The notes beneath the pieces were generated by a model, which was not told where the DNA came from, made no database searches, and saw nothing but the letters and a program-made list of their open reading frames with translations. Shown here in pieces: positions 1 to 63,654 of a DNA stretch of 64,000 bases (its first letter is position 1; each line of letters begins with the position of its first letter). A program made the translations under genes and the position numbers. This stretch comes from Piezodorus guildinii (lineage: Eukaryota; Arthropoda; Insecta; Hemiptera; Pentatomidae), in NCBI GenBank assembly GCA_023052935.1, contig CM041292.1, positions 26,618,954 through 26,682,953 of the forward strand. Reading direction: 5' to 3'.

Positions 1-282
1 AGCTTCATACATTATATTACAGCTGAAATACTATTAATTGTCTGCTATAGCCTTCTTGAGCACAAAGGAGAATAAAAATAGTGCCTAACCTCATTCTCGG
101 TCTGTCTTATCTGAATAGAAGAGATTAATTGTTTTGATTTTTTTATTAACAGATACAATTACTTAAAGGTCATTCCCTACAGCAATGCATCACATGAGTA
201 ACATAGAAGTTCTATGCAACAAAAGTGGAAAACAAATTTTTTTAATGAATTGATTGATTACAGACGTTCATAGATCTAAATC

Positions 283-396
283 AAACAAATTACTGGAGGA
301 ATTAGTCGGGTCGGTCATTAAATGAAACCAATAGTTTCAACTATTATGTTGCCAACGTTTCGACCCTTGTGGGTCATCATCAGGCCATGTGGAGAA
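283..396 (-). repeat. Single arm of a foldback hairpin element with CTGATGA..GAAAC core
   Basis: Read on the minus strand this carries CCTGATGATGACCC, ACAAGGGTCGAAACGTTGGC, then the AATAGTTGAAACTATTGG-type arm and TTAATGACC. The same units form a complete palindrome at 12345-12563. Only one arm is present here. Confidence 0.6.
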
Positions 397-502
397 TGGA
401 AAGCTAAATATATTTCACCATAAGCCTATGTCATCAAAACCATCACAGATAATAAAGACTTCAGCAGTTATTATCATCATGAATTAAATGAAAGTTGCTT
501 AC

Positions 503-912
503 TGTTAGGATGAAACATCTCACACATAAACTGCATCTTAGGAGGGCTCAGAGGATAGTCAGGAGGGAAAACTAATTTTGTTGGGAAAATCCCGCCTTCA
601 AAACAGGTGCCTTCAGGTCCACTAAAAAAGAAAAATGATTGAAATAGAAAAAGTGATTACTCTGTAGATGAAAAATAAAGTAAACATCACTACAATAATA
701 ATGGCATACGTTATTAGAGCCTCCCATTCAAAAAAATTTTCTTCATTGACTGGTCCAGCGATTATGCCTTCAGGAGGATTGATAGTAAGTTCTGTAAAAA
801 TAAGGTAAGCTGAATAAATTAATTCATGTGAATTAACGCAAAAAATCATTCATTAAAATATAAAATTACGTTTGTATTCTGCCATCAATCTTCTCAATGC
901 TGATCCTGCCAT
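503..912 (-). CDS. UBE2G2: UBE2G2/Ubc7-like ubiquitin-conjugating enzyme E2, 5' part (partial)
   Basis: Three coding exons on the minus strand: 870-912 (ATG at 912), 710-791 and 503-621. GT/AG sites are intact and the phases are continuous. The protein starts MAGSALRRLMAEYKQLTI, then NPPEGIIAGP, NEENFFEWEALIT, GPEGTCFEGG, FPPDYPLSPPKM and CEMFHPN. This is the N-terminal half of the UBC fold and matches the UBE2G2/Ubc7 branch, the ER-associated degradation E2. About 81 residues are present. The last visible exon ends in phase 1 after HPN, so the HPN tripeptide is here but the catalytic Cys exon and C-terminus lie beyond position 1. The family normally has about 165 aa. No frameshift is seen. 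The family assignment comes from remembered motifs and is strong. Confidence 0.93.
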
Positions 913-2159
913 TTCTTGCGATCTTGTTTTACCGTTTATAATGACATAATTTTTGGATGTGAGAACTTCTACACAGTAGAAGTAGCCAAAGAGGTACAAC
1001 CGGCTAGCTACAATGTTTGGTGGCTTAATTTCTATTTGTTTATAGTCACAACACTGTATACACCAATCATCAACTAATGTAAAATCTTAATTATAGGAAC
1101 TGATTCAAAACATGCTCCGATTATTACTGTATTGGATTATTAAAAGAACGGTATGCCAGCCAGCACCAATAGTCTCTTTCTTTTCCAACGGGATTTGTTT
1201 TATAAGTAGAATTTGGTTGGGATTGCAGTAATTGAAACACTTAAGTAACCTTACATAGTTTTGTCATCGTTTCGGCGCAGCTAGACGGTAACATATCAGT
1301 TTTGAAAAATTCCACTCACTACCTTTGCATAAGAAAGCGCAAATGCATTTTTCTTAATGTACGTTTAAGTAGATTTGCTTTAACTTCACAATTTTCAGCT
1401 TAAGCAGAGGCAAACTCAAGGTGTGTTCCCTCGTTGCTTATATTTTTAGAGATTAGGCAGGATATGCGAAGTACATTTTATTTCGTTCTAATCAGAGCCT
1501 GTTGGAACGGGAAAAGTGTACTGCTTATACTGAACTTTATCTCTAAGTAACGATGGAACACATCTTAACTTTTTCCAATTCCTCTGAATTGCGAAATTTT
1601 AATGTCCGGTTTTGTCTAAACTTGGATGATAGTAGAATATCAGGGTTTAAAAGGTTCGGTACAAAATTTGTAAGATTTTATATACTTTTTTAAAATGGTG
1701 TTAAGATAGAGCAACTGTTCGACAAATTCTTGTATGACCAAAATAAATCATCGAACTCAGACCGTTACTGACATGGATACTGCTTTTTGAACTTAGTGGT
1801 TATGATTCATAATTCTAATGCTGTTAAAGTTATTATTAAATGACGTCGCTGTAATTTAATTATTGGGTAATTTGGAAACTATTGATATTATTTAAGATCA
1901 AAATAATATATTAAAACATAATTTAACTGTTTCATATATGTAAAAAAAAAAAAAAAAAAAATCAGACTAATATTAGGGACGTTATACGCAACATATTTTT
2001 TTAGTGGACTGTAAGGCAGTAAGAAAAGTAACATTAAAGCATAGATCTTTCACTTTGCATTAATAACTAAACTTTATCTCTTTTGATTTTAAAATATTTG
2101 GTAATAATCAGCCACTGTCCTTTTAATTTATTTATTTTAATTTTATTTTATTTATTTTT
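913..2159. other. Upstream non-coding DNA of the E2 gene
   Basis: AT-rich sequence 5' of the UBE2G2 start codon. It contains a poly-A run near 1945. I see no coding exon, RNA gene or clear repeat family member in it. The UBE2G2 promoter should lie in the first few hundred bases next to 912. Confidence 0.5.
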
Positions 2160-2162
2160 TAA

Positions 2163-2425
2163 ATGACCTCGATCAAACAGGTGTAGTGGAAAGGGATAAG
2201 ATAGAAGAAATGCATCCCTTTCCTAAAAGAAAAGTTCCGCGAGACATTTGGCGAGAGACAATTCTCCGTTAGAGAGGTCTATGGTTTGGGTCTCGCGGAG
2301 CGATCCCTGGAAGCACAAGGAGATTTTTGAAAGACCTGGGTGTCGATATAGGAGATATAGCGGTGTTAAAAAGAAAATGTGATTTTGGACTCCCGGGGGA
2401 TTATCCACCATCACCTGTATGGCAA
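2163..2425 (+). pseudogene. Possible degenerate retroelement ORF C-terminal fragment
   Basis: A locally more GC-rich island in AT-rich DNA. One plus-strand frame reads through about 75 codons with one internal stop, including SRGAIPGSTRRFLKDLGV followed by a GDIAVLKRK-like stretch. This resembles the end of some non-LTR retrotransposon ORFs (an 'arGaip..t..fl..lGv..' pattern). The likeness is weak and from memory; an unrelated repeat is equally possible. Confidence 0.25.
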
Positions 2426-2799
2426 TTAAATAGTGAATATGATTATATTTTCATTATGTAATGTGCGCACCAAAATTCTAAATTTACAATATAGTGCTAG
2501 AGAGAAATGAAATAAAATAATGTAAATGGCTAAAAGAGAAAAAAAATTGTAAATATTATAAATTTGCAGGAAAAAAAAAATTGAAAATGTATGTAAAATA
2601 TGTCCAAGTGATTGATAAGTATGCTGTGTTTTATAAGCGACCCGATGTATTTGGGCAGCATTGCCAAATAAATAAAGCATTTCTCTCTCTATTGCTATTT
2701 TTTTCATAAGGCTTTTCGAACTTTAAATTATTATTAACCGCTTCTGTATGAAAAGATATTATTTTTCTCACAGCAAAAGTAAGATTTTTATCGAGATAA

Positions 2800-3195
2800 A
2801 ATGGACGACGCTACAGTGGGATCCTAAATTTTGCCTATTCAGGTTTAATTAGAATAGGGATCTTTAACGAGTACCTGACATCGCACAGGCTCGGGACCAC
2901 CTTTTAACGTCCCCTCAGAAGGACGGCACAACTAATGATTTTTCACTCCCATTTAAAAATCCTAGGGCCATCTCTCGGATTCAGGATTAAATTTTAGTTA
3001 TTCAATGTTTCCCAGATTGAAGTAAACCTCTAGAGCCTTGTCATTTTTTTATTTCTATTTCTCCTACTTGGCCATTTCTAGCATACATAGAATCGATAGT
3101 GGTACTCCACTATAGTACCCAGTACCCGGTTTGAACCCAGGTCCTTTGGCATAGGAGGCTGTTATGCTAGCCTCCTTGCTACAGGTAACCCCGAA
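2800..3195 (-). mobile_element. SINE family A, interrupted/degenerate copy
   Basis: It matches the intact family A copies at 45604-45900 and 53359-53650 through the TTTAACGAGTACCTGACATC block (2868-2884), the GCACAGGCTCGGGACC block and CCCCTC..AAGGACGGCA. After an insertion of unrelated DNA, the tRNA-like end resumes (3130-3195, including GCTGTTATGCTAGCC). It is older and more diverged than the other two. Confidence 0.65.
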
Positions 3196-3427
3196 CATTT
3201 CGTTAATCTTCGTCTATTAAGTTTGGACTTCCGTATATTACAAGTTTGACTTACTGTAGGAGTGACTCGATGTGATGTGAACATTACAAAGTCATAGATG
3301 TACTTCTCAATTATTAGGCTTACCAGAGGAGATTCTGAGAAGATACCTCACATTCGAGAACTCTGATAGAGAGGTGGATAACTTTTATTATATTAGTTTC
3401 GTGAAAAATGGACGTCGTGGGTCGTTT

Positions 3428-4376
3428 TAAGTTTCACTTACCTGTATATGAAACATATATTAAGGAAAAGTATTTCGATTGTCAAAATTTTTTAATTCCA
3501 GTTTTCAACTGAAATACGCGTTTTAGGGTATCGTAAGTCCTAATAACCAAGTCCTGCAAAAAAGGTCTGTATGTTAGTGTGTGTGTGTGTCCATGTGTAG
3601 TGAATCTAGCACTAAAACGAAAAGTCGTACGAAACTAAAATTTCATATTTAAGACAACTATACGCCCGAGACGTTACAGTAACTTTTTCATCAAAATCGG
3701 CGAACCAGAAGAGACACTCAGAAACGGCTCTAACGATTTTGATTAAACTCGCTATATCAATCTAAAATTTTATGGGCTTTAATATGCCGATAATTTAAAT
3801 TTCCTTTCTCTTTTAATTTTGTGGATTCGAAAAAATTAACCACGTCATGTCGTTAGCACTTTTAAAAACGGGTAAATAAATAGGTTGAACGAATTCGGTA
3901 TTCAACTAAAAGGGAAAAGAGCAAAAAAAATTGTTTATACAATCTTTGTGTTTTTGAACATAAGAACATTAATATAGATGTGTAATATATTATTGGAAAA
4001 CTTCTTCTTATATTGGCAACAGAGTGTAGTGTCTTGGCTGAACACCTTCCACTGTCTATTTCTGCATGTTATCGTTATTCTACTTATTGTAAAACTAATG
4101 ATTAAAAAAAAAATATTATCTTTTACACAAAATTATAAAATTTAATGGAGAGTGATCCAAAATCCCATAAAAACTAACTGATTTTTCTAGATGATAAAAT
4201 AATAGATTATTTAATGAAACACATATTTCTACCGAAACAGAATTTAATTAATTCTTTACCCTTTTTACTTTCATTTACCTATATCTTTCATCTCTAGCTC
4301 TGCTTGAAAATTCTTAAATTGATTTTAACAACGGAGGTAAGTGAAGGTCATGTTTTGCGCGCATCAGATTTTTGTA
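3428..4376 (+). mobile_element. Helentron-like dispersed repeat, copy 1
   Basis: About 950 bp, non-coding. It begins with TTTCACTTACCTGTATATG and ends with GAGGTAAGTGAAGGTC followed by a GCGCGCATCAGATTTTT end. Internal landmarks shared with copies at 19169-20091, 21034-22506 and 56765-57632 are CCAGTTTTCAACTGAAATAC, CCAAGTCCTGCAAAAAAGGT, a (GT)n tract, TTTAAGACAACTATACGCCC and TTAAACTCGCTATATCAA. Confidence 0.65.
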
Positions 4377-5076
4377 ACTAATAATTATAGCTCGTGTAAA
4401 AACCTCTATAATATAGTTTTATTTTGAGATAGTATTATGAATCACTATAATGTTTATTTTCTACATAATCTATGATAGAAGAAAATAGCTAGGTATCTGT
4501 TGAAAAGAGTTGCTAAGTCACTATCGTTTTATAAATTGATATATCTATCAATTTCAATATTACTTGAATGTGGTATTTATCATACGTTTTGATATTATTA
4601 TCTCAGTTAATATAATAGCTAAGACAATCACTATTTTGATTAAATTCGGTATTGAAGCTTTTAAATTTCGGAAATTTATGAGTTTTAGAACTCCTGTCAA
4701 GAAAATCACTCCATTTAATGATGGCTCACACGATTGGAACTACGTACATTCGTTTAAGTCATTAACTTATTGTTAAAAAGAAAATTAGTTTAAATATGAA
4801 TCACAATATCTTCAATGTCAACAATTTGTTAATATGATAATACGTAATGAGAAATATCGTAGGAATAATGGAGGATTCAATTTTAAGATAAGCACTACTC
4901 CTTTTTTTTATGGCCTTCATGTTTCCCAGCGACCTCTATGTCTCCAAGCCACGCGCTTCAGTTCAATCCCCGGTCAGTTAGTGTGGTTACCTCTCCTCGT
5001 GGTCTTGGGTGTCTTTCGGATAGTATGGTTAGGGTGTAGTAAATTTTGTTTAGAAAGTTTTAATAATTAATTCATC
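4377..5076. promoter_or_regulatory. Region upstream of NOP58
   Basis: 700 bp of AT-rich sequence before the NOP58 start. A short GC-richer patch (4915-5040) with a tRNA-like CAGTTCAATCCCC box may be a SINE remnant. The NOP58 promoter and 5'UTR must be here, but no specific element can be identified. Confidence 0.35.
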
Positions 5077-8000
5077 ATGCTTGTTCTTTTCGAAACACCT
5101 GGTGGATATGCCATATTTAAGGTAAGTTTCCAGTTTCCTTTTAATACTTAATATTATAACCACATGGTCACGTGTTGTTTACTTATGAAGTTTTATTATT
5201 TTATTTATGTTTAATTTTTAGCTGTTGGATGAGAAAAAGCTTTCGAAGACAGATGATCTATATAAGGATTTTGAGACACCAGAAGGAGCTAATCAAATGT
5301 AATTAATTTAATATCCTAGCTGTAGCACATTTACACTATTACTCCAATATTACATATTTAACATCTTTTTGTGTTTTAGTTTGAAATTAAAGCATTTTGA
5401 GAAGTTTCTGGATACTACTGAAGCCTTAGCATCTACTACTGCAGCTATTGAAGGAAAAATTGGAAAAACTCTGAAAAAGGTAAATACTTTGCCTACACAT
5501 TATGTTTTATTGTCATTTGATTTATTCTTTGTTTTGTGCCAGTTGTACTAAATTACAATTTATCTTCTCATATCGCAAATGTATAGTTCAGCTTCCCTGG
5601 CTGAAAATGTGTATTTAATGTTTACTTGATGATTTACATTAATGTATTTGTTATTCTGTACTGAATGTATGATGTTTTTGTTGTTTAGAATTTATATTCT
5701 ATGTTTACTTTGACAAATATTTGAATACAACAAATGCTTTAAATGTTTATGACATAGCATGTATTTGTTTTAGTTAAATTGCTTAATTTTCAGTTGAAAT
5801 TTTATATTAATATTTTGTTTTATCATGTCATGATTTTCTGTTCTTGCACACATATACATTTGTCTATTATTAAATTTTATTTAAATATTTGATATTCTTT
5901 GTTTAATTATAGGCCCTCAAAAGTGTATTCAAAGAAACCCAAGAAAAAATTCTGATTGCTGATGCTAAACTTGGAAATGCTGTTAAAGATAAATTTGATG
6001 TACCAGTCGTTTCAAGCTCTCCAGTCCAAGAGCTGATGAGGTGTATAAGGTCCCAGACAGAAAGCTTGCTATCTGGTCTTCCGAAAAAAGAATTTACCGC
6101 AATGGCTTTAGGTCTTGCACACAGGTAATAAATTTTTTCTTTCTTGTTTTTTTAAATAATGCCCAGTATCTCTTATTTTCTCTTAAAGTATTTGGAATTG
6201 GTAATTAAATTTTTTCTTAAAAGATACACATGCTTGGTCTAAGATAGGCTGAAGCATTCTAAAGCCTACATTATTTAATTTTAGCCAGTTTTTTCACCAA
6301 GGTTACATTCTTTCAGGATCTTTTAATTCTGAATGTTTTAGAATTTTGTTGAGGTGAAAGTTAAAATCTTGATAAAGTTTTATTACTTTCATTTATTACT
6401 TGTAAATTTTTATTCCCAAGGAGTATATCCTTTGCAAGCACATGTCCTTCTAGAGAAAAAAAACATCCTATTAAATCATTAACATTCACTTCACTTGCCC
6501 TCAGTAATCAGTCTGTTCTGTCAAGAAATTACTTCTGTCTTAGTTAACTAAATATGTCAACAATTATATATCAAAGAAAAGTCAAGGTTCTAAATAAAAA
6601 CATGTAACTTTCTCTTCAAAAACTAAATGTTTGAAATGCTTTTAGTTTATGCATTGTATTGATTATTTTCAGTCATTACATTCACCATACAAAATGTATT
6701 ATTAAAATATTTGTTTGTTATAGGTAGAAATTATTAGGAGTCAGCTCTTTGAAAAATATTTCTATTTTGCTGATGTTTCGGCTCACAAGTTTAAACCTAA
6801 ATATCGGCAAAATTAAAATATTTTTCGCTAAAGCTAACTCCTGACTATTTCTACCTATGATAGTTTCAACTATATATCCTCGATATTTTTTTACTAGCAT
6901 TTATTTGTCCTAGTAGAATCATTTAATTATTAGTTGGGATTTTTTTATTTATATTTATTCAAGTTTTATCATGTCATGATTTTCTGTATATGCACATACA
7001 TACATTTTTCTATTAAATTCAGTTTTTCAATCTTGTTTAAGATATTAGACATAGGAAATGGTAATGGAAATTTTTTTAGTTTTCCTCTAACTATTTTTAA
7101 GTCTTAGAGTCGCTGCCTGGTTAACTAATCTCCATATAGTGCTAAAGAACTCTTATATTAAAATTTTTGTTTATGCATTGTATTGGTTATTTGCAGCCAT
7201 TACAATCACCAAATAAAATGCATTTAAAAAAATTAAATTATATTGTATAACATTTTGATCCTCTCTTATTAAGTACTGGAAAAATCCGTGGTATTTTTTA
7301 AATGGAGTGTGCCATGCTACACAGCTGAGAGTAAGTGAAAATGAAATATGAAAAGTAGTGTAGGTTTTCTATGAGGTCGGTGATAGTGAATTATCATACA
7401 CTCTCACTTTTGACATAGTATTAATACATGTTTTTTTTGTAACTATTGTAACCAATTATAAAATATTGTTTAATTTCTTAAAATGAAGTTTCTACATCAA
7501 AGATACACGTTTTCATGATGTGCATATTACTCTAATTTGGATGTAACTTAATCACTTAGTTTTTTAAACTTTTTGCAAAAATAATATAGGGTCTTTAATA
7601 AATAATATTTGATGTTATTTATTATCCAAATGTTTTTGTTTTTTTTTAATTGTGCCTTCGCCCTCTCCCACTAATTTTGTTAACTCTCACAAGATCTCGC
7701 TCTCACGAATTTCCACGTACCTTTTCTCTCACTGTGTATCGTGGCCTTAAATAAGGTTAGATTTTATATCATGTTATAGATTGTTCTCCAACTTAGCTTT
7801 CTGTATCTAATAGGTTACTTAAATCAATTTCAATTGTTTCTAATTCTAATTAACATATTTGAGTTATATTTATAGGATATGTCTCATTTACATTAAAAAA
7901 TTTTAAATGTAATTTAAGATAATAAAATTTTCCTGCTATTAATTTTAATGTAATTATTTCAGCCTGTCTCGCTACAAGCTCAAGTTTTCTCCGATAAGGT

Positions 8001-11000
8001 GGATGTGATGATCGTCCAGGCTATCGGATTACTTGATGATCTCGATAAGGAGTTGAACAATTATATAATGAGATGTAGAGAATGGTATGGGTGGCATTTT
8101 CCTGAACTTGGGAAAATCATTACAGACAATCTTGCATTTGTTAGAATTGTTAAACTTGTTGGTGAGTACTAATATTTGTTAACATTATATGTATCAATTT
8201 TAAGTTTGAATGGTTGTGCTTAGATGTGCTAAATCACACTTATGAATTCCTGTAGAATAAACCCTCCTGTTTGCAACAATATGAGCAGAGTGGGACGTTT
8301 GACACATAAAAGCAAGTAAATTATTTTCACTCTTATGAGAAACAATAGTGCTGTAGTTTCTGTCAAACTATTTTTGAGACTTGGAGTCGCTGCCTGATGG
8401 ACTCATCTTCCAATAGTGCTAAAGAACTCATATAGTTAAAGTTTTTTTTATGTATTGTATTTCTTATTTGCTGCCATTACAATCACCAAACAAAATACAG
8501 TTGAACTCTCTTTATGATTCTTGATCATTCTGAACGTGAATAATTTAGTGGAGATCATTTTAATCCAATGAATATAAATTAAAAAAAAACTAGCAATATT
8601 ATTAGAATTTGAATTTTAAATCTCTAATGTAAATGAGTTTTGGTGTTTTTACTGAGCGAATGATAATTCTTTTTACTTTAACTTACTTATATATGAAATA
8701 CCATATTTTGCATTTTGTTCCATATTATGATTTTCTCAAAAACGGCTCTAAGATTTTGATTAAACTCGCTATATCAATGTAAAATTTAATGGACTTTAAT
8801 ATAATGTAGTTTTCATTCTGATTTAAATAGTGTGACGACTTTAATGCTAATTATTTTCTTTCTCTACATCTGATACAAAAAGTTGTAAAAGGTAATATAA
8901 AGTGACGAATAGGGAATAAATTTGTTAATGATTGCAATTTAATTTAGTCACATTGTTTAATCCAAATCATTGTTTCCAACAAAATGAAATTACGTTTTAT
9001 TAAAATCAACTTAAAATACATTTAAGTTGAATTATATCTAATAGTTTTTAAATTGATTTTAACAGTCGTGGTAAGTGAAAGTCGTGTGTTACCCACACCA
9101 GATTTTTTGAGTCTTTGAGTCACTGCCTGGTGAACTAATCTTCAGATATTGCTAAAGAACTCATATGGTAAACTTTTTGTTTATGCATTGTATTGGTTAT
9201 TTTCATCCATTATAATAGATGAAATACAGTTGAACTGAGCTTACCATTCTTGATCAGACTAGAAATCAAAAATCCAGTGCATGAAAGAAAAACTCCACAG
9301 ACATAAGAATTTCTTACCTTTGGAGGGGATGTAAAATGGTGGTTTCTAGCTGGTTAATGTCAGGTATACATTAAAGATTCCTCTCCTAATTAAACCTGGA
9401 TAGGCAAAATATATGACTCACTCTAGCATTGTTCGATTAGCCCCAGCAGCACAAAGTGACGTTAAGTGAATAAACAAACAAACTAATACTAGTAAGTTGT
9501 GATTTTTACTGACCTAATGAGTTATTCTTTTTTATTTTTTTTTTTTGAGTCTTAGAGTCGCTGCCTGGTGAACTAATCTCCAGATAGTGCTAAAGAACTC
9601 ATATAGTAAATTGTTTGTTTATGCATTGTATTGGTTATTTGCTGCCCTTACAATCACAAAACAAAATACAGTTCAACTCAGCTTATTATTCTTGATGAGA
9701 CTGAATATGAATAATTTAATAGAGATCATGTAAATCCAATGTATATAAAACAATAAAAAAACTGCTAATATTTTATTATTTCCAAATAATTATATTAGGT
9801 TATAACAGTTTGTATAACTGTTGAAGCAATCAACTTTTATGTATTGTGATAAATTTATCAAAGGAAAATGACCGATCCAATCACCACTGCAAAGTCAAAA
9901 TGATATTTCTTAACTGATTTCTATTATTCTATTGTTTTGTTTTGTAGAGAATTTAATTCTCTATAAAATAACATTGAAAAAATAATTGTTGGTATTTATA
10001 AATTTATATAGTGAATTCATGATCTTAAAACTCAATAAATAGTAAGTTATGGTGTTTTCCGAGCAAATGATAATTCATTTTTGAGTCTTAGAGTCGCTGG
10101 CTGGTGAACTAATCTCCAGATAGTGCTAAAGAACTCATATAGTAAATTGTTTGTTTATGCATTGCATTGGTTATTTCCAGCCATTACAATCACAAAACAA
10201 AATACAGTTCAACTCAGCTCATTATTCTTGATCAGACTGAAGATGAATAATTCAGTGGAGATCATGTTAATCCGATGTATATAAAACAAACCAAAATTTA
10301 ATAGAAAAAAGGTATTGAAGTTATAAAATCTCCAATATAAATAGTAAGTTGTAGTTTTTAGATTATATATTACTTATTAATTGTCTTATCTTATGTTTTT
10401 TCTGAGTAAAAAAAATTAATAATAATAAAATTGTTCTTTTTTTTTATTTTTTTATTTTTTTTTAGTCTTAATCATCTTTTGTTATAGAACTCTGATACAA
10501 AACTTTTATTTTTGCATTAATAGGTTATTTACAACTATTAAAATTAACAAATAAATACATAAAAATAAGTTTTAGACGGATCCAATCAACACTGCTAAGT
10601 TCAAAATGATATTTCTTGAATGATTTCTATGATTCAATTTTTTTTGTTTTGTAGAGAATTTAATTCTCTATCAAATAACATTTAGATAATAATTTTTGGT
10701 ATTTATAAATTAATATAGTGAATTTCTGATCCTAAAACTCAATAAATAGTTATGGCGTTTTACGAGCAAATGATAATTCATTTTTGAGTCTTAGAGTCAC
10801 TGCTTGGTGAACTAATCTCCAGATAGTGCTAAAGAACTCATATAATAAATTTTTTGTTTATGCGTTGTAATGGTTATTTGCTGCTGTTACAATCACAAAA
10901 CAAAATACATTTGAACTCAGCTTACCGTTTTTGATCGATTCATACAAAAAAATATTACTGAAATTTTGTGGAGTCTCAAAATAACTATTTTTGAGTCTTA

Positions 11001-14000
11001 GAGTCGCTGCCTGGTGAACTAATCTCCAGATAGTGCTAAAGAACTCATATATTAAAATTTTTGTTTATGCATTGTAACGGTTATTTGCTGCCGTTACAAT
11101 CACAAAACAAAATACAGTTGAACTCAGCTTACCGTTTTTGATCGAATCATACTTAAAATATATTAAAGGAAATTTTTGGAGTCTCAAAATAACTTTTTTT
11201 GAGTCTTAGAGTCGCTGCCTGGTGAACTAATCTCCAGATAGTGCTAAAGAACTCATATATTAAATTTTTTGTTTATGCGTTGTAATGGTTATTTGCTGCC
11301 ATTACAATCACAAAACAAAATACAGTTGAACTCAGCTTATGGATTTTAATCGAATTATACAAAAAACATATTAATGAAAATTTGTGGTCTCCAAATAACT
11401 ATTTTTGTGTCTTAGAGTCGCTGCATGGTGTACTAATCTCCAGATAGTGCTAAAGAACTCATATATTAAAATTTTTGGTTATGCATTGTAATGGTTATTT
11501 GTTGCTGTTACAATCACATAACAAAATACAGTTGGACTCTGCTTACCGTTCCTGATCTAACTTAACATATTAATGGAAATTTGTGGAGTCTCCAATAAAC
11601 TATTTTTGAGTCTTAGAGTCGCTGCCTGGTGAGCTAATCTCCAGATAGTGCTAAAGAACTCATATAATAAATTTTTGTTTATGCATTGTAATGGTTATTT
11701 GCTGTCGTTACAATCACAAAACAAAATACAGTTGAACTCAGCTTACCATTCTTGATCGAATCATAACATAAAACTATTAATGGAACTTTGTGGAGTCTCC
11801 AAAAAACTATTTTTGAGTCTTAGAGTCGCTCCCTGGTGAACTAATCTCCAGATAGTGCTAAAGAACTCATATATTAAAATTTTTGGTTATGCATTGTAAT
11901 GGTTATTTGCTGCCATTACAATCACAAAACGAAATACAGTTGAACTCAGCTTACCATTCTTGATCGAATCATAACATAAAACATATTAATGGAAATTTGT
12001 GGAGTCTCCAAAAAACTATTTTTGAGTCTTAGAGTCGCTGCATGGTGTACTAATCTCCAGATAGTGCTAAAGAACTCATATATTAAAATTTTTGGTTATG
12101 CATTGTAATGGTTATTTGTTGCCGTTACAATCACAAAACAAAATACAGTTGAACTCTGTTTATTATCTTTATTGGACCATTCATAAAATATATTATTGAA
12201 AATGTTTGGAGTAAATAACTATTTTTGAGTCTTAGAGTCGCAGGCTGGTGAACTAGTCTCCATTATAATTACCAAACAAAATACATGAAAAGTGTTTTAC
12301 GTCTTTGAGTTTCCAGTTTGATAGTTATCTATTATAGTGGAAGGAATTAGTCCGGGTGGTGGTCTTAAATGAAATAACTAAATAGTTTCAACTATTTTTT
12401 GTTTGCCTACGTTTCGACCCCCCTTTGTGTTTGAATTACCTTTCACCCACCATGTGCCCTGATGATGACCCACAAAGGGGGGTCGAAACGTTGGCAAACA
12501 ATAAATAGTTGAAACTATTTAGTTGTTTCATTTAATGACCGCCACCCGGACTAATTCCTTCCAGTAATTCTCAATGGTCAACTAATTACATCCACAGTTA
12601 TCTATTTTATTTACTGGATCTGAATAATTATACTTTTAAGTAGAGTTGCTGCAGCAGAGTTGAATCTGTTGATTTAATATCTGTAATGTGCTGAAGAACT
12701 CATATGTTAAATTAAAAAATATATATATTATTTTGGTTTAATATAATGATTTTTCCTGTTAAGGTATTTATTTGTTATGTTGTTGTTTTAGGAACTAGAG
12801 AAAATGTTGCTGATACTGATCTCTCTGATATATTAACCGAAGAGATAGAACAGCAAGTTAAGGAAGCTGCTGAGATCTCTATGGGCACAGAAATATCGGA
12901 AGATGATATCATGAACATACAGGCACTTTGCGATCAGGTACTAATTTTTTCATGGGTTTTATTTTATACTTGTATTTATTACTTTTTTTTAATTCTACAT
13001 TATTTTTATTTAATTATCTTTTTAGGTGATAGAAATGACACAATACCGAAGCCAATTGGCAGAGTATTTGAAGTCTCGAATGTTTGCCATCGCACCAAAC
13101 TTGTCTGTGTTACTTGGTGAAGTCATTGGAGCTAGGCTTATTGCACATAGTGGTAAGAAAATTATAAGATGATTAAAATATTTTATTTTTTTTATACTCA
13201 GTATAAATCTAGTTTTTAACTTTTTTTTTTATTTCATCTAACAACGGTAACAAAATAACTGTAATTGGTCCATAAATATCTTAATTAGTTAATTTGTCAT
13301 CAAATTGATTTTTTATCTCTCTTCTCTTCTGTTCACCATTATTTTTAATTTTAAAAAGTTATTGATTTATTTATTTTTAATAAGAAAATATGTTCATTTA
13401 TATTAAATTAAAAGTCCTCCTAGAAGGATGCAAGTCCCTATGTGGGTTAATAAAGTTATAATGATATTGAGCCATGGCTAAAAAATCAAATGTTGAGACT
13501 TCTTTTAAATAAAGCCACCTGTTAGAATTTAGAACACCCAACAGGATTTACTCTGTAAAACAATAACAGTAATTACCAATATTCCAACCTCACTTTGTGT
13601 TGTTTTATTCATTTTGGTTATTTAAAAAAGTTGTGGCTCTTAATTTATGACTGATATTGTAGATGATTTAATTAAATTTATAAAGATTTGACCCCACAGA
13701 ACGCTAAGCAGAAAAGTTTAATATAAAATTTAGATCATATGCCTATGGCCTTGTTACCTCAGTAACCACAGTTCAAATGGACTGATATTAATAGTACTTT
13801 TTGTTAATTATTTATCTATTGGTAAATAATTCCACAGGTGGTTGGTTAATGTATATCTAATAGTAATATCCCCCAATCATTTTAGAAACATTATAGACTA
13901 AACAAAATTTTATTTCTCATGGTACCTATTTAATATTGTTTATATATAATTATGTAATGAAAACAAAGTATTAATTTGAATAAACTTCGTTAACCAACAT

Positions 14001-16302
14001 TAAACATTACATTTTCTGACGCTTACTGTTCCAACAACTAAAATAATATGATTATTTTTAACTTCATATTAGTCAACTTCATTTACTTATGACAAAAGTA
14101 ATAACTAATGTTGGTGTTTATCCAGACCCGAGGTCTCTGTGAAATTCTGAATCCAAGATATACTATGCATTTATTTAACTGTCTTGAACCTTTTAATTAA
14201 TATATATTTTTAATTGGATTATGTTGTACTTTTATAAGATGAACTGTATTTTATCTTAGTTAAGTTCAATGGAGCAAGTGTAATATATTAGATATCTTCT
14301 TTTTTAGGTTCTTTAGTAAACTTAGCAAAACAACCTGCATCTACTCTACAGATTGCTGGAGCAGAAAAAGCTTTATTTAGAGCTCTAAAAACTCAAAAGA
14401 ACACCCCTAAGTATGGTCTCATCTATACTTGTAATATTGTAGCTGGAGCCAGTGCAAAGAATAGAGGAAAGGTAATTATCTAAATAATACTTCTTTTAGT
14501 TATCTCTTTTATGTTACTTTATTATTATTACACACGTTATAGGCCTTCTATCAAACCATCAGATTAGTGGAGTAGAGTAGATGTTACTTTATTATTATTT
14601 GTTTTATGTTTTTCATATAATGGAATATTTTGTTTCATTTTTCAGATTTCACGAACGTTGGCTGCAAAAGCCTCACTAGCCTCTCGTGTGGATGCTTTGG
14701 GAGAAGATGTTAGCGGAAATACAGACCTTGGATTAGAAATCAGGGCCAAATAGAACTTCATCTAAAATCATTAGAAGAGGGAAACTTGAGAAAGCTATCA
14801 GGCACTGCCAAGGCCAAAGCGAAATTCGAGAAATATCATGGAAAGAGGTAATTAGTTTGAACGAACTTTCTTGATCTTGAGCTTATGTTTCAAGATATTT
14901 AGAACCGCAATAAGAAAAAAAAATCTGTTGTCCACTGTCCACGGCATTTCTCAGAAACTACTGGACCCATTTTTGCTGAAAATTGCCACAAAAATAATAA
15001 GATAAGTAGCAATGATCCTAACACCTAGACGATGATATCAGCTGGTTATTTTAAAAATGGCGCCCAATTCAAAGTGATTTAATTCAATAATTCAGTTATT
15101 TTTGAGGATAGAGTATAAATTCATTAGTGTTTTTTAACCAAAAAAAGCGAATAATTAAAAAAAAAATAGCAATTAATATGCTCATAAACTCCTTGAAGAT
15201 AAAGGAAAAAAATTTTTAGTTTTTTTTTTAACGTGTAAACTGTGAACAATTAGTAAAAAGCAAAAAAAAAAAAAAAAAAAAAATGAATTTTACCCATAAA
15301 TACCCCTCTAACTGGAAAAAAAACCAACTGAAATCGGTTTTGAAATTAGCAGTGGTGACATTTTCCTTTTAATTATTTATTGCTTTACATATTATTTAAT
15401 TGCCTTTGAACAGGTATCAATAACAAACAGTTAAACCCTAATATAGTTATTTGGAATTAATAAACCATTATGTAATAATTTGCAGTGCTTTTGGTATTTC
15501 ACTTGCTTTAATATCTTCATTATTAATTTTTAGTGAAATCCTGGGGTACTCTGCCATGTCAGATTCGACCCTTGGTAAAAGGAAAAAAGAAAAGAAGCCA
15601 TTAATAGAGGATATTACGCCAGCTGAGACTGTCGCAGAAACTGAAGGTATGTTAGATTCATTTTGTGAAGTAATAAAGTAAGCCTTGTGTATTGTGGTAG
15701 CGATTTGCTGTGAGAGTAGAGGGTTGCATGTGGGACTGCCTCAAAGTATTCCCGATTTTTAACTGAAGTTTATCTAACAAGGAGAGAGTTCCAAATGTGT
15801 CTGCATCCAATAAATGGTATTTGCAATGCCACCTTGTGACTATTACTTCCCTCTAGCACTGTAGGCATCCCATCTGAGTATCTCTTGGTATTTTGTTACA
15901 CGCTAAGTAACCTGTTACTTTCTTAACAAATTACTTCCTTTATGAACTAAGTCCTAAGTCATGTTTTATGGATAGAATAGATAGTTGACAACTTGTAGAA
16001 CAGTTTCTTATTTGAATGCCCGATTGATTACTCCATTTTTTTTATTTACAAATTATGTTGGTTTAACAGAAAGTCCTCCCAAGAAAAAGAGGAAAGTTAA
16101 AGAAGAACCTGTGGATGAAACTGAAGAAACCGAACCGGTAGAAGTTACACCATCCAGCAGTTCCAAAAAGAAGAAGAAGAAAATTAAGGATGAACCTGTA
16201 GAAGAAACCGAAGACGTAGAAATGGAACAAGAAGCTGAGGTTAGCAGTTCTAAGAAGAAGAAAAAGAAGAAAATCAAAGAAGAACCTGCTGATGATGAAT
16301 AA
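5077..16302 (+). CDS. NOP58: NOP58 nucleolar protein (box C/D snoRNP core), 11 exons, two frameshifts
   Basis: Exons: 5077-5121, 5222-5298, 5380-5479, 5913-6124, 7963-8161, 12792-12937, 13026-13152, 14308-14471, 14646-14847, 15534-15646 and 16070-16302. The product (about 539 aa if frames are mended; human is 529) starts [15 protein letters not shown] and carries [60 protein letters not shown] and [12 protein letters not shown], which are the NOP5 N-terminal, coiled-coil and Nop domains. It ends in a Lys/Glu tail with PKKKRKV and three KKKKK-(I)K(D/E)EP repeats. NOP58 scaffolds the 2'-O-methylation guide RNPs in the nucleolus. Two single-base losses break the frame: near 7992 (FSP|DKVD) and near 14751 (RAK|xEL). 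All splice sites are intact, so a sequencing or assembly error is likely, with a decaying copy as the alternative. Introns 4 and 5 hold the H/ACA-like array. Confidence 0.95.
6640..6705 (+). repeat. Degenerate partial copy of the H/ACA-like unit (second hairpin only)
   Basis: GTTTATGCATTGTATTGATT..TTTTCAGTCATTACA..CAAAATG matches the 3' hairpin half of the units downstream. The 5' hairpin is unrecognisable. It lies in NOP58 intron 4. Confidence 0.45.
6719..6859. repeat. Short foldback (MITE-like) palindrome in NOP58 intron 4
   Basis: The left arm ATAGGTAGAAATTATTAGGA pairs with the right arm ending ACTATTTCTACCTAT. GTCAGCTC..TTGAAAAATATTT also pairs with AAATATTTTTCG..AGCTAAC. The arms are about 55 bp and imperfect around a ~30-nt centre. 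Confidence 0.65.
7099..7225 (+). ncRNA. H/ACA snoRNA-like unit 1 (NOP58 intron 4)
   Basis: Hairpin 1 is AGTCTTAG..CTAAAGAACTC, hinge ATATTA, hairpin 2 ATTGTATTGG..CCATTACAAT with one mismatch. The terminal ACA has become GCA (ATGCATT), so this copy may be inactive. It is the only nearly complete unit outside intron 5. Confidence 0.45.
8376..8502 (+). ncRNA. H/ACA snoRNA-like unit 2
   Basis: 5' hairpin GAGACTTGG..CTAAAGAACTC; hinge ATAGTT (imperfect ANANNA); second stem degraded (ATTGTATTTC / CCATTACAAT); ACAGTT end kept. First unit in NOP58 intron 5. Confidence 0.45.
8700..9108 (+). mobile_element. Helentron-like dispersed repeat, truncated copy
   Basis: It shares the GATTAAACTCGCTATATCAA block and the end GGTAAGTGAAAGTCGTGTGT..CCACACCAGATTTTTT. 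It stops exactly where H/ACA-like unit 3 begins. Confidence 0.55.
9109..9231 (+). ncRNA. H/ACA snoRNA-like unit 3
   Basis: 5' hairpin GAGTCTTTG..CTAAAGAACTC is kept. The hinge (ATGGTA) and second stem (ATTGTATTGG / CCATTATAAT) are weakened; ACAGTT is present. It directly abuts the end of a helentron-like repeat. Confidence 0.4.
9355..9482 (+). mobile_element. SINE family A, 3' fragment
   Basis: AAACCTGGATAGGCAAAAT, GTTCGATTAGCC and the tail GTGACGTTAAGTGAATAAAC followed by AAACAAAC match the 3' half of family A. The tRNA-like head is missing. Confidence 0.65.
9547..9673 (+). ncRNA. H/ACA snoRNA-like unit 4
   Basis: Intact 5' hairpin (GAGTCTTAG with CTAAAGAACTC, CTGG with CCAG), hinge ATAGTA (fits ANANNA), second stem with mismatches (ATTGTATTGG / CCCTTACAAT), ACAGTT at the 3' end. 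Length 127 nt. Confidence 0.55.
10083..10209 (+). ncRNA. H/ACA snoRNA-like unit 5
   Basis: 5' hairpin as in the other units, hinge ATAGTA, second stem ATTGCATTGG / CCATTACAAT (imperfect), ACAGTT end. 127 nt. Confidence 0.55.
10464..10560 (+). repeat. Decayed H/ACA-like unit
   Basis: TAGTCTTAATC..TATAGAACTCTGATAC..TGCATTAATAGGTTATTT is recognisable, but most stem pairing is lost. Confidence 0.4.
10786..10912 (+). ncRNA. H/ACA snoRNA-like unit 6
   Basis: Hinge ATAATA; second stem GTTGTAATGG / CTGTTACAAT, closed by Watson-Crick and wobble pairs; ACATTT end. 127 nt, first member of the regular array. Confidence 0.6.
10993..11119 (+). ncRNA. H/ACA snoRNA-like unit 7
   Basis: Best-formed copy. 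Hairpin 1 is GAGTCTTAG / CTAAAGAACTC with an upper CTGG/CCAG stem, hinge ATATTA, second stem ATTGTAACGG / CCGTTACAAT perfectly paired, ACAGTT end. The lower stem of hairpin 2 pairs ATTTTTGTTT with AAACAAAAT. 127 nt. Confidence 0.65.
11201..11327 (+). ncRNA. H/ACA snoRNA-like unit 8
   Basis: Hinge ATATTA; second stem GTTGTAATGG / CCATTACAAT fully paired (one G-U). Relative to unit 7 this is a compensatory C-G to U-A change. ACAGTT end. Confidence 0.65.
11407..11533 (+). ncRNA. H/ACA snoRNA-like unit 9
   Basis: Starts GTGTCTTAG; upper stem of hairpin 1 is weaker (CATGG); hinge ATATTA; second stem ATTGTAATGG / CTGTTACAAT closes with G-U wobbles; ACAGTT end. Confidence 0.55.
11608..11733 (+). 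ncRNA. H/ACA snoRNA-like unit 10
   Basis: Hinge ATAATA; second stem ATTGTAATGG / GTCGTTACAAT (paired with wobbles); ACAGTT end. 126 nt. Confidence 0.6.
11815..11941 (+). ncRNA. H/ACA snoRNA-like unit 11
   Basis: Hinge ATATTA; second stem ATTGTAATGG / CCATTACAAT perfect; ACAGTT end. The pocket region differs slightly (GCTCCCTGG). Confidence 0.6.
12024..12150 (+). ncRNA. H/ACA snoRNA-like unit 12
   Basis: Hinge ATATTA; second stem ATTGTAATGG / CCGTTACAAT (U-G wobble at the varying pair); ACAGTT end. Upper stem of hairpin 1 is CATGG, as in unit 9. Confidence 0.6.
12227..12285 (+). repeat. Internally deleted terminal unit of the array
   Basis: The 5' hairpin start (GAGTCTTAGAGTCGCAGGCT) is joined to a 3' end (ATTATAATTACCAAACAAAA) with the middle missing. 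A further decayed trace (GTGCTGAAGAACTCATATGT) lies at about 12689-12708. Confidence 0.6.
12345..12563. mobile_element. Foldback hairpin element with hammerhead-like core
   Basis: Near-perfect palindrome of about 85-bp arms. GGAATTAGTCCGGGTGGTGG at the left mirrors CCGCCACCCGGACTAATTCC at the right. AATAGTTTCAACTATT..GTTTGCC.ACGTTTCGACCCC is mirrored by GGGGTCGAAACGTTGGCAAAC..AATAGTTGAAACTATT. The centre reads CCCTGATGATGACCCACAAA. It lies in NOP58 intron 5, just after the array. Confidence 0.8.
14860..15480 (+). repeat. Dispersed repeat D (longest copy), in NOP58 intron 9
   Basis: Landmarks GATCCTAACACCTAGACG, GATGATATCAGCTGGTTATT and AAAGTGATTTAATTCAATAA recur at 37600-37830 and, inverted, at about 61660-61870. 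TATAGTTATTTGGAATTAAT recurs near 42189, and AATGGCC.ATCAC..CTGC pieces recur near 9860 and 56720. Non-coding. Its class is not recognised, and it runs close to the acceptor of exon 10. Confidence 0.55.
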
Positions 16303-17539
16303 TTGTAAATACGAATATTTTATGTATAGATATAAATATATTTATGTTTTTATAATTTTTATTTTGTTGAGTAAATAAATACTCTTTTGTTCTATAACTT
16401 TATTGACATATTGCCATTCACTTACCAAACTGTTTAATATGTAACAAGCTAAGTAAATGAATAAAACACATGATAGTCTAGTGAAAAAACTACCCATTGG
16501 TTGCATAGCAATGTCTTATTTAAGATTCAATGGTATTCTGCAGGAAGTAATATACAAGCAGGTTTGTGTGGAAAGGAAGTTTGTAATTTAAAGAGGTATA
16601 CCTATTTCAGCTGTATTTTACTAATGGAGATATTCAGGTTTTGAATGATGAATTATTTTATCAGTAACAAAGTAAGGAGCATTGCATTGAATATTTTGTA
16701 TTTTATGTAGGAATTAGATCTTCTAGTGGATCTCCATAGCTTAATGCCATAGGGCTAAATATGCCTTATTATAAATGAATTTTTGTGTAGGAAATAAGAA
16801 AAATTATGGAAATTTCAAATAGGAAAGGAACATCAACTATCGTATAATGCTACCCCTGATAGCTGTTTTCTGAAAGGTTTTGAATAGTTAGGTAAGTGGA
16901 TATAAAGGTGTTAGGTGGTTGAGGCCAGAAAAGGTTCTGTAATAATTTTATGGGGATGATTTGCCCATCCAAAAGCAATTACTAAAAATCTAATTACTGT
17001 TTCATTATAATTAGATATTATTACTTTCTAGAGAAAAATTGTTATCACAAATAGAATGTTGAAATAATGTACAAAATATAAATGTATCTTTTATTTGTAA
17101 TATCTTTAAGTAAAACAGATTCAGGTACATTTAATACTACTAAAAGGTATATTATGTTTACATCACTTCAAACAATATCACAGAAAAATTATCCCAATCC
17201 TATAAAACATTAATTACTTCGATCAAAGTTTGCCTATTACAAATCTATATATCTAGTGCATCTAAATATATCAGAAATCACAGCAAATACATTACATGTT
17301 TATCAATTAATTAATTTTAATTAGTAGAAATCTTAAAATTAACTCATTGGAGACTTGTTAAACAAATATCGTATGAAATACATTATTACTTCCTGAAAAC
17401 CGTAATTATCCTTGAACGATTATAAATATAACTATTATATGTACATAAAATTATGTAATTGTTTCATAAATGCATCAATCAGGTAATTTTTAAAAATTTT
17501 ACTACTGAGTACAGAATTGCTTCGCTACTTAGCTTATTT
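16303..17539. other. Convergent intergenic region, NOP58 / F-box gene
   Basis: Both genes end into this 1.2-kb AT-rich stretch. An AATAAATACTC polyadenylation-like signal for NOP58 lies near 16374. For the minus-strand gene, ATAAA-type signals are too common here to choose one. No coding exon or known repeat is seen. Confidence 0.5.
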
Positions 17540-22900: not shown

Positions 22901-23767
22901 CAATCGATCAGCTGTTTTCTGAAGAATTTATCTATACTTTGATCTTCCCTGGAAACTTCAAATTAATTTAAGTATGAAACCAACTTATACATATTTAAAA
23001 TTTATTTTCTTGTCCATATAAACTAAATAAACATGATTTGCGACTTTAAGATATTCAGTAAATTCAGGTACATATTTGTATAATTTTAAACCTAATACTG
23101 TTATTCTGAAATAAAAACAAACCTTTTCATTAATTCATAAAATATTAGTAGATCTGTAATGACTTTAATTATAAACCTAATAAATCTCTTAATCTGAATT
23201 ATTAGAAAAAAATTAATCTTAAGAATATGAAGAAAATCTGGAATATATTTTTAAAAATTTATTTCTTGATTGGTTTCTTAATCTAATCACCAAATATTTT
23301 CATTCCAAAATTATCATTTTATATTACTGTTTGTCTGCATACTTTATTGCTATGATTATTTTTCTTTTAATTTTATTGGTTGTTATCTTGTTTTTTCTTA
23401 GCCCTGGAGAAGCCCTGTAATTCAGGACGAAACATTGGCACACAAATATTTCTATACTTCCAACAATACAATATGTTTATTTTAAGCATGTATTCATATT
23501 TGTAAAGAAAATTAGCTTAATAATAATATAATAGAATAAGGAAATAAATATTAAGAGCATACCTGGATTATCAAAATCTAAAGCACAAAACACCCACTCC
23601 TCGACACACAACCTGTGTTTCTTGCACATTCTTTTCCAAAGTACATCTGAATTCGCATACGATCTCCATTGTTTACTTACACAGCAACATGAAGCTAAAT
23701 CATTGGCATTTAAGTATTTAAATATTTCAATTGCAATTTCAGGAGGAAGACTTCCTACTACGTCCAT
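17540..23767 (-). CDS. F-box protein with putative beta-propeller C-terminal half
   Basis: Two coding exons, 23563-23767 and 17540-18654, joined in phase 1 (CCA G|GG GAA), give 439 aa with no break. Residues about 5-50 form an F-box: LPPEIAIEIFKYLNANDLAS, CCCVSKQWRSYANSDVLWK. This is the SKP1-binding adaptor motif of SCF ubiquitin ligases. The remainder has repeating beta-strand-rich stretches (IFVYDLEEKNRF, LTKHHLVVRQGDVFTVFSRH, GYLIDLKTNHILYELDL) like a degenerate propeller without clear WD dipeptides. It is likely a substrate-recognition subunit; the substrate is unknown. A TATTTCAG acceptor lies 10 bp before the ATG, so a non-coding 5' exon probably lies upstream. The 4.9-kb intron is full of repeats. 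Confidence 0.88.
19169..20091 (-). mobile_element. Helentron-like dispersed repeat, inverted copy
   Basis: It runs from TCTGGTGCGGGCAACACACG, then ACTTTCACTTACC, to CTTACTATATATAGTAAGTG, then AAAGTAAAAA. The terminal 16-bp palindrome TTACTATATATAGTAA and the inverted ACTTTCACTTAC / GTAAGTGAAAGT near the two ends are clear. A (CA)n tract lies at 19920-19958. It sits tail-to-tail with the copy at 21034-22506. Confidence 0.7.
20692..20718 (+). repeat. Solo hairpin end of the helentron-like repeat
   Basis: ACTTTCACTTACTATATATA followed by GTAAATTC: only the palindromic terminus of the element is present, between two larger inverted copies. Confidence 0.6.
21034..22506 (+). mobile_element. Helentron-like dispersed repeat with internal insertion
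   Basis: It has the same ends and internal blocks as the copy at 19169-20091, in opposite orientation. At about 21697-22207 an unrelated ~510-bp segment interrupts it. A ~70-bp stretch of the element (AGAGCAGTAATATACATGTA..GGAAAGCTAA..) is present on both sides of this segment, at 21627-21696 and 22209-22275. Confidence 0.7.
23395..23470 (+). repeat. Hairpin-element core (CTGGAGA..GAAAC type)
   Basis: CCCTGGAGAAGCCCTGTAAT followed by TCAGGACGAAACATTGGCAC: a stem (CCCTG/CAGGA-like) between a CTGAnGA-like box and GAAAC. It lies in the F-box gene intron and is related to the cores at 283-396, 12345-12563, 41625 and 53945. Confidence 0.45.
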
Positions 23768-24560
23768 ATTTCTAGTCTGAAATACAAATAATGATTGTTG
23801 ACAAGCTCAATAATGCTGAAGACAATAGATATTCAAAGGAATATTTACATAAAACTAAAGTTCTAAAAATATCCCTCAAATGGAGGTTGCAACTTGGCCA
23901 AGAGTCAAAAACTAAATAGATGTATGTATATTTTGTTTTGATATAAAATTTAGTTATTTAAAAAATAATTTATTTTCCTTTTACATTACCTAGTATAGAG
24001 TACTCGAGACTTAACTATTATTACTTTAAGTTGATATATTTGTGTAGTTTAAATGAATAAAAAAGTAAAAAAAACTTGTGTGTTTTGATGATATGTTTAC
24101 CTACTCTGAGTGAAAGTAGAATCAAAAAATGTTTTTTTTGTTTTTTTTTTTTTTTTTCAGATATGTAATACTTTTTTTAGCTAAAGATAACTGGAATACT
24201 ACTCCACAATTACATACTGGAGGATAATAGGAGAACATCTTGGTTCTGTAGACGGGCATCATCCTCCTAAACAATCGCTGTCTTGACTGGCAGGCTAATT
24301 TAATTTAAAAAAAACAAAACCTTCACATTGACAAAGGTCATTAACGAGGGACTACTGCACTATTATTTATAACTTTATTCTGTTATTTTTAACATGGTTC
24401 AAGGGATCTAGACAGTCAGAAGGCGTAGCTGCCTATAAATAAGGTTCATTCAATTTAAAAATCAAATTAAAACTTCAGATTCAATAAATAAATAAAAAAT
24501 TCAACACTGATTTTTGTACATCTCGCCGTCAACACTGTTTTTGTGGCAAAACTGAGGAAC
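23768..24560. promoter_or_regulatory. Bidirectional promoter region, F-box gene / unknown gene
   Basis: The F-box start (23767, minus) and the next gene's start (24561, plus) are head-to-head about 0.8 kb apart, so both promoters must be within this interval unless a leader exon lies elsewhere. It contains a long T-run (24135-24158) and no transposon that I recognise. Confidence 0.5.

Positions 24561-30058: not shown

Positions 30059-30116
<58 letters not shown>

Positions 30117-37328: not shown

Positions 37329-63654
<26,326 letters not shown>

Follow-up and report, generated by a model that had tools for sequence, protein, structure and literature searches.

What are the repeated units of about 130 nt that occupy two introns of the NOP58 gene in the hemipteran insect Piezodorus guildinii? 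The locus lies in a window of 64,000 nucleotides (assembly GCA_023052935.1, contig CM041292.1, positions 26,618,954 to 26,682,953; coordinates below are counted from the start of this 64-kb window, which is part of an assembly of 1.2 Gb). A first-pass annotation, made from the letters alone, described the units as an amplified family resembling box H/ACA small nucleolar RNAs (snoRNAs). This description, which named neither a family nor targets, has held up, and it can now be made more specific: judged by their sequence, the units are very probably SNORA3/SNORA45-type guide RNAs of the box H/ACA class. Four lines of evidence carry this assignment, namely the match to an Rfam family (found at all twelve units, below the curated cut-off and not significant at one of them), the folds of several units, the complementarity to the 28S ribosomal RNA (rRNA) of the same genome, and the constraint on the unit sequence.

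Twelve units are found between 7099 and 12150, all on the plus strand, which is the sense strand of NOP58, and are accompanied by four remnants (a lone 3' hairpin, a decayed unit, an internally deleted unit, and a lone 5' hairpin); the first-pass annotation had counted at least twelve sense intronic units, correctly. Unit 1 is in intron 4 and the other eleven are in intron 5, where units 6 to 12 form a tandem array with a period of 208 bp (10780-12262). The four remnants testify to a loss of copies. In the rest of the window, the best blastn match to the units has an E-value of 0.007. A DNA search of the whole assembly gave at least 13 matches, all 13 within the NOP58 array, and no copy outside of it, these counts being lower bounds. 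The Rfam SNORA3 model, with which 42 of 32,521 candidates in the assembly were scored, gave eight matches at E <= 0.001, again all in the array, and the same family search in 14 control genomes returned zero matches, which is little informative. Given the small share of candidates scored and the blank control genomes, diverged copies may exist elsewhere.

The first-pass annotation had proposed a search of Rfam, and its outcome depends on the mode. At gathering scores, there are no matches in the whole 64-kb window. In E-value mode, applied to positions 1-17,500, the SNORA3/SNORA45 family (RF00334; gathering cut-off 51 bits, model length 131) is found at all twelve units across the full model, with scores from 49.8 down to 21.8 bits and E-values from 3.7e-7 to 1.8; ten of the twelve have E < 0.001, the exceptions being units 2 and 3. 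Weaker matches to other H/ACA families (ceN100, SNORA72, SNORA18 and SNORA13) are seen in the same mode, and a search with 241 bases around unit 7 gave 49.6 bits for SNORA3 and 42.0 bits for ceN100 (E 6.4e-7). The strands of the 5' pocket, AGAGUC and GCUA, are common to the units, the SNORA3 consensus and the ceN100 consensus. A covariance model built from the units themselves recovers all twelve at E 4.7e-24 or better, as it must by construction. Since the best score is under the Rfam cut-off, we call the units SNORA3-type on the strength of alignment and target, and do not count them as curated members of the Rfam family; for the same reason, automatic annotation that relies on the cut-off would miss all twelve.

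The anatomy of the units is best described on unit 7, which served as the reference. Its 5' hairpin consists of a lower stem UGAGUCUU/AAG-A-ACUCA, a pocket AGAGU(C)/(G)CUA and an upper stem CGCUG.CUGG/CCAG.UAGUG; its 3' hairpin has a lower stem UUUUGUUU/AAACAAAA, a pocket AUGC/CACA and an upper stem AUUGUAACGG/CCGUUACAAU, and is followed by U-ACA-GUU. Compared with this, the second hairpin of the first-pass annotation, ATTGTAAnGG/CCnTTACAAT, is a real upper stem, but the lower stem TTTTGTTT/AAACAAAA and the pocket ATGC/CACA below it had been missed. The 5' pocket strands proposed there, AGTCGCTG and AGATAGTG, turned out to be mostly the upper stem CGCUG/UAGUG, the true guides being the neighbouring UAGAGUC and GCU. 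In H/ACA RNAs, the pocket is an internal loop located about 14-16 nt ahead of box H or ACA. In unit 7, there are 14 nt from the first base of the right guide to box H, and 13 nt from the upper stem to ACA, which by that way of counting is one below the range; we still regard the spacing as that of an H/ACA RNA.

Both boxes had been said to recur in all units, and they do so in most: the hinge fits box H (ANANNA) in ten of the twelve, units 2 and 3 being the exceptions, and ACA follows the second hairpin, three nucleotides from a 3' end that is taken from the family model, in every unit other than unit 1 (11/12), which has GCA. Units 4 to 12 each retain ANANNA, ACA and both guides. The minimum-energy folds of units 4-8 and 10-12 consist of two hairpins around a hinge, some of them with extra outer pairs. 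Unit 1, folded as 130 nt, also gives two hairpins; unit 3 has the 5' hairpin and an altered 3' hairpin, and unit 2 does not fold into two hairpins. Fold stability was compared with dinucleotide shuffles for six of the units (1, 2, 4, 7, 8 and 11), and is strong in four of them (4, 7, 8 and 11), weak in unit 1 and absent in unit 2, which is not structured (z-scores in the table).

Targets for the 5' pocket were first sought with the strands of the first-pass annotation and at other places of rRNA; none fitted, and the limits of the pocket were then set anew on the basis of the Rfam alignment. The target derived from this alignment reads AGC-PsiN-GACUCUA (Psi, pseudouridine), which, in human 28S rRNA, falls on U3899. 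Human 28S rRNA has pseudouridines at 3899 (100%) and 3938 (93%) (PMC6182160). In chicken, the ACA3 copy in intron 3 of RPL27A is assigned to 28S-3409 through its 5' hairpin (7+3 nt), and the one in intron 2 to 28S-3448 through its 3' hairpin (5+4 nt) (PMC2653536). The ACA54 site, at chicken 28S-3311 (PMC2653536) and human 3801 (PMC9941101), provides the offset between the two numberings, by which chicken 3409 and 3448 are human 3899 and 3938.

At these two sites, the Rfam consensus of the eukaryotic large-subunit (LSU) rRNA reads GAGC-U-U-GACUCUAG and GUG-U-A-GaAUAaG, and the species' own 28S, of which two copies were retrieved (L012 and L013), reads GAGC-TT-GACTCTAG and GAGGTG-TA-GCATAAG in both. 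The 3' guide, UUAUGC, calls for GCAUAA, that is, for a C where the consensus has a variable a, and it is a better match for GCAUAAG, the reading of both own-genome copies, than for the consensus GAAUAAG; insect 28S likewise has C at this variable position. The two genomic copies count as evidence for the C because they were obtained by similarity over 102 bases (L012 is recognized as LSU at 935 bits, L013 at 93).

As the decisive test, we then ranked, by a simple home-made score, the 285 uridines in the 1,296-nt match of L012 to the Rfam LSU model. The expected site comes first for the 5' pocket (L012 position 1509, score 11.3, next best 7.6) and for the 3' pocket (position 1548, score 9.6, next best 5.6); shuffled guides equalled the best score in 0 of 400 and 2 of 400 trials, respectively. 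The comparison of the pockets with rRNA suggested by the first-pass annotation thus came out positive, but only after the pocket strands had been reassigned. The 5' guide makes 7+3 Watson-Crick pairs in ten of the twelve units, with one G-U pair in unit 2 and one mismatch in unit 3, and the right strand of the 3' pocket pairs over 4 nt in units 1 and 2 and over 3 nt in units 4-12, and is lost in unit 3. At the level of complementarity, both pockets fit the equivalents, in the species' own 28S, of human Psi3899 and Psi3938, as in the chicken ACA3 copies.

Several observations on rRNA-like sequences were made on the side. The exact pattern GACCCTGTTGAGCTTGACTCTAGT had no match in viral contigs; with a shorter pattern, L002 was recovered once more, together with L003, whose sequence at the matching position is, on visual inspection, not rRNA. 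Two IMG/VR "viral" contigs, L001 and L002, terminate in eukaryotic LSU rRNA and for this reason look chimeric or mislabelled; the pattern that detected them contained the C variant from the start, so that they say nothing about C at the second site. In the P. guildinii genome itself (C2, near 188.58 and 188.65 Mb), the 28S-like sequence of L012 and L013 starts abruptly just before TGTCCCTACC, and the sequence upstream of this start differs between the two; these may be rDNA units that are truncated or interrupted, perhaps, at a guess, by R-type elements.

The tandem array offers an internal control, in which units can be compared with the spacers duplicated along with them. Across the seven periods of units 6 to 12, 18 of 130 unit columns vary, as against 35 of 84 spacer columns (Fisher P = 8e-6), which points to a stronger constraint on the unit; within the units, the guides and ACA are invariant (0/22 variable columns, versus 18/108 elsewhere, P = 0.04). 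Units 6-12 are 92-98% identical to one another, and units 1-3 are 80-91% identical to the other units, which we take to reflect greater age. The locus would then have grown by local duplication, with units 1-3 as an older set that is now decaying, and the younger 208-bp array would be kept by purifying selection, perhaps for a higher dosage of the guide, dosage being, we infer, the simplest reason for the amplification. Unit 1 is probably decayed or marginal, and units 2 and 3 are probably pseudogenes.

A number of results weigh against reading the units as guide RNAs. The gathering score is reached by none of the twelve units (best 49.8 against 51 bits, model positions 1-131), and the SNORA3 match of unit 3 is not significant (E 1.8). 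Both stems had been said to recur; by the pair list of the model they are unbroken in units 6, 7, 8 and 10, whereas at least one pair is broken in the other eight of the twelve. The minimum-energy fold of unit 9 is not the two hairpins of an H/ACA RNA, those of units 4 and 5 pull ACA into a stem, and units 1-3 fail on boxes, structure or pockets. The target scan is confined to the 3' part of the species' 28S, and the 1,296-nt match opens with roughly 40 nt of unrelated, non-rRNA sequence that ends in a TTG repeat. Gene conversion confined to the unit could partly mimic its low variation. Covariation among the units gave no signal (two pairs doubly changed, with 91 of 500 shuffles as high), and is uninformative because the copies are too alike.

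The host gene had been said to encode a core protein of small nucleolar ribonucleoproteins (snoRNPs), and this is borne out: the first 392 residues of the hand-spliced product match nucleolar protein 58 among solved structures (PDB) at E 7e-161, with the best NOP56 at 8e-94. The closest protein relative, among the best 120 of 7,993 matches, is NOP58 of Nezara viridula (96% identity), and the next named one is from Riptortus pedestris (81%). With the N. viridula protein as query, tblastn pieces span 5077-16299, and residue differences are scattered across the exons. The reading frame has one break near 14750, the match resuming in another frame from 14741; as the single break among the tblastn pieces, it may be an assembly error or a recent mutation. 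Two fold-back elements lie near the units. One, at 6720-6858 in intron 4, is an inverted repeat with 49-nt arms (71% complementary) that resembles a miniature inverted-repeat transposable element (MITE), and the only Rfam matches there are sub-threshold ones to microRNAs; the other, at 12335-12566, has 65-nt arms (95% complementary), resembles by eye the sequence at about 296-390, and probably represents a MITE family.

Table. Positions of the host gene, the units, their remnants, and the functional parts of unit 7 in the 64-kb window.
Feature	Position	Strand	Remarks
NOP58, host gene	5077-16300 (end about 16300)	+	Hand-spliced protein match, tblastn pieces, splice sites read from sequence
NOP58 exon 1	start 5077	+	Splice sites read
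NOP58 exon 4	end 6124	+	Splice sites read
NOP58 intron 4	6125-7962	+	Splice sites read
NOP58 exon 5	7963-8161	+	Splice sites read
NOP58 intron 5	8162-12791	+	Splice sites read
NOP58 exon 6	start 12792	+	Splice sites read
Remnant, 3' hairpin only	6640-6694	+	37.5 bits with own model (E 4.6e-5), covering its positions 69-123
Unit 1	7099-7225	+	Intron 4; SNORA3 35.5 bits, E 9.8e-4; fold z -1.8; box ACA changed to GCA
Unit 2	8373-8502	+	Intron 5; SNORA3 32.1 bits, E 0.0063; fold z +0.6; H box ATAGTT; 7 broken pairs
Unit 3	9106-9231	+	SNORA3 21.8 bits, E 1.8; H box ATGGTA; right strand of 3' pocket deleted; mismatch in 5' guide
Unit 4	9544-9673	+	SNORA3 45.1 bits; fold z -3.6; boxes and guides intact; 3 broken pairs in hairpin 2
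Unit 5	10080-10209	+	SNORA3 43.7 bits; boxes and guides intact; hairpin 2 with 3 pairs broken
Decayed remnant between units 5 and 6	10460-10570	+	17.9 bits with own model (E 0.25); blastn match at 10480-10555, E 2.5e-6
Unit 6	10783-10912	+	First of 208-bp tandem array; SNORA3 48.8 bits; no broken pairs
Unit 7 (reference)	10990-11119	+	SNORA3 49.6 bits; fold z -6.6, 0/200 shuffles equally stable; no broken pairs
Unit 7, 5' pocket left guide UAGAGUC	10999-11005	+	Pairs with 28S GACUCUA
Unit 7, 5' pocket right guide GCU	11035-11037	+	Pairs with 28S AGC
Unit 7, box H ATATTA	11049-11054	+	
Unit 7, 3' pocket left guide UUAUGC	11065-11070	+	Pairs with GCAUAA of the species' 28S
Unit 7, 3' pocket right guide CAC	11101-11103	+	Pairs with 28S GUG
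Unit 7, box ACA	11114-11116	+	
Unit 8	11198-11327	+	SNORA3 47.1 bits; fold z -5.5; no broken pairs
Unit 9	11404-11533	+	SNORA3 35.7 bits; boxes and guides intact; 4 broken pairs
Unit 10	11605-11733	+	Top Rfam score, SNORA3 49.8 bits, E 3.7e-7; no broken pairs
Unit 11	11812-11941	+	SNORA3 41.3 bits; fold z -4.8; 2 broken pairs
Unit 12	12021-12150	+	SNORA3 43.2 bits; 2 broken pairs
Thirteenth unit, internal deletion, array end	12219-12311	+	blastn E 1.3e-10; sequence read
Remnant, 5' hairpin	12666-12713	+	blastn E 6.8e-6

Box H/ACA snoRNAs are stable RNAs of about 120-140 nt that associate with dyskerin, NHP2, NOP10 and GAR1. Intronic H/ACA RNAs are released as RNPs by splicing and trimming, in the course of which dyskerin-type H/ACA proteins guard the folded units and the rest of the intron is degraded. 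By analogy, NOP58 would be transcribed, its introns spliced out, and the units released in the same manner. The 5' pocket, UAGAGUC + GCU, would then guide the pseudouridylation of that 28S uridine which corresponds to human Psi3899, and the 3' pocket, UUAUGC + CAC, that of the counterpart of Psi3938, placing two pseudouridines 39 nt apart. In animal genomes, an intron mostly contains a single snoRNA, and a pair within the same intron can give rise to hybrids of snoRNA and long non-coding RNA (sno-lncRNAs) (PMC11028025); measured against this rule, eleven units in one intron raise a question of processing. It is possible, though we would put it forward only tentatively, that this is a functional array of at least nine H/ACA guide genes in one animal intron, all addressing the same pair of rRNA sites and each of them matured. 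If so, an endonucleolytic or other release step would be needed beyond debranching and trimming, and the gene of a C/D snoRNP core protein would set the dose of an H/ACA guide.

A different answer to the processing question, compatible with the guide assignment and likewise a matter of conjecture, is that one or a few units work and that the others are redundant duplicates, unprocessed and homogenized by gene conversion. Exonuclease trimming of a single lariat would free the outer copies only, and the six spacers, with z-scores between -2.2 and +1.4 in the shuffle test, contain no conserved stable hairpin that could serve as a processing or endonuclease site; the prevalence of one snoRNA per intron in animals (PMC11028025), the decayed look of units 1-3 and the poor fold of unit 9 point the same way. 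Pulling in the other direction are the boxes and guides preserved in each of units 4 to 12 and the stronger constraint on tandem units than on their spacers. Moreover, H/ACA RNAs are reportedly clustered in introns of Drosophila, to go by the title of a 2004 paper of Huang et al.

The remaining explanations deny the units a primary role as guides. The array might act in cis on the splicing or dosage of NOP58, as a feedback on the host gene, with guide function secondary. This is improbable: the units are of the H/ACA type, the NOP58 protein is not known to bind H/ACA RNA, and the guide strands belong to the best conserved columns, even if eleven units sit in intron 5 and NOP56, the sister C/D core gene, is under feedback from its own intronic SNORD86 (PMC11028025). 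Still less probable is a snoRNA-derived mobile repeat, resembling a short interspersed element (SINE) or a snoRNA retroposon (snoRT), or a plain tandem satellite, which by chance expanded within these introns and whose guide function is gone. The 208-bp period and the presence of remnants and decayed copies would suit it, but the lower-bound assembly search gave no copy outside NOP58, a single strand is used throughout, the guides and ACA stay invariant in units 6-12 next to spacers that vary, and complementarity to two neighbouring 28S Psi sites is retained. Repeats that are microRNA-like or simply form hairpins, and are not H/ACA RNAs, would account for the stable hairpins of several units, and hardly deserve credence in view of the box positions, the spacing from pocket to box, the Rfam H/ACA families and the target complementarity.

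Elsewhere in the window, there is a 780-nt inverted duplication at 28449-30065 (arms 96% complementary, 57 nt between them, and a 21-bp tandem array at each outer end). Fragments of mariner/Mos1-type and Tc1/Tc3-type transposases are located at 46955-47284 (minus strand), 55093-55626 (plus) and 58625-59392 (plus). Probable exons of an EML-type beta-propeller gene lie at 50167-56333 (minus), where a single piece out of three exceeds the Pfam cut-off for the family, and a probable F-box exon at 23477-23806 (minus).

The kind of RNA described here is already known; what is unusual, to our knowledge, is the presence of eleven units in one intron. Among the titles and abstract openings listed in literature searches, neither an insect relative of SNORA3 nor an H/ACA array hosted by NOP58 is reported, from which we do not claim absence from print. 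Near-identical copies with private substitutions amount to a natural test of H/ACA RNA output per intron, and the array also bears on the reasons for amplifying a guide that serves two conserved sites.

Among known systems, the reported intronic H/ACA clusters of Drosophila are alike in that H/ACA RNAs of an insect are grouped in introns. Arrays of the SNORD115/SNORD116 type have one snoRNA per intron of a long host RNA. The mammalian SNORD115/SNORD116 and other tandem C/D arrays resemble the NOP58 locus in that a single snoRNA family is repeated and copies are gained and lost, and differ in being C/D, in lying in imprinted domains and in reaching up to hundreds of copies (PMC11028025). The closest nematode counterpart is C. 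elegans ceN100 (RF01607), which has identical 5' pocket strands and, in the 3' pocket, a very similar left strand UUAUGC and the right strand CACC; this likeness comes from the Rfam alignment, and the match of the units, 42.0 bits, is below the cut-off of 80. Vertebrate SNORA3/SNORA45 (ACA3, RF00334) aligns with the units over its full length in the covariance model, its consensus has the 5' guide CUAGAGUC / GCUA, and its genes are likewise intronic, chicken having one in each of two introns of RPL27A; by the chicken assignments, split there between the two ACA3 copies, the same two 28S sites are addressed (PMC2653536). The units differ in their host, NOP58 and not RPL27A, in their number, twelve with eleven in one intron, and in a best score 1.2 bits under the Rfam cut-off. 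The units may have an ancestral gene in common with vertebrate SNORA3: the guides they share and the full-length alignment speak for it, and the host gene is different. A kind of guide represented in vertebrates and nematodes by SNORA3 and ceN100 would now extend to an insect, in whose own genome both rRNA targets were checked.

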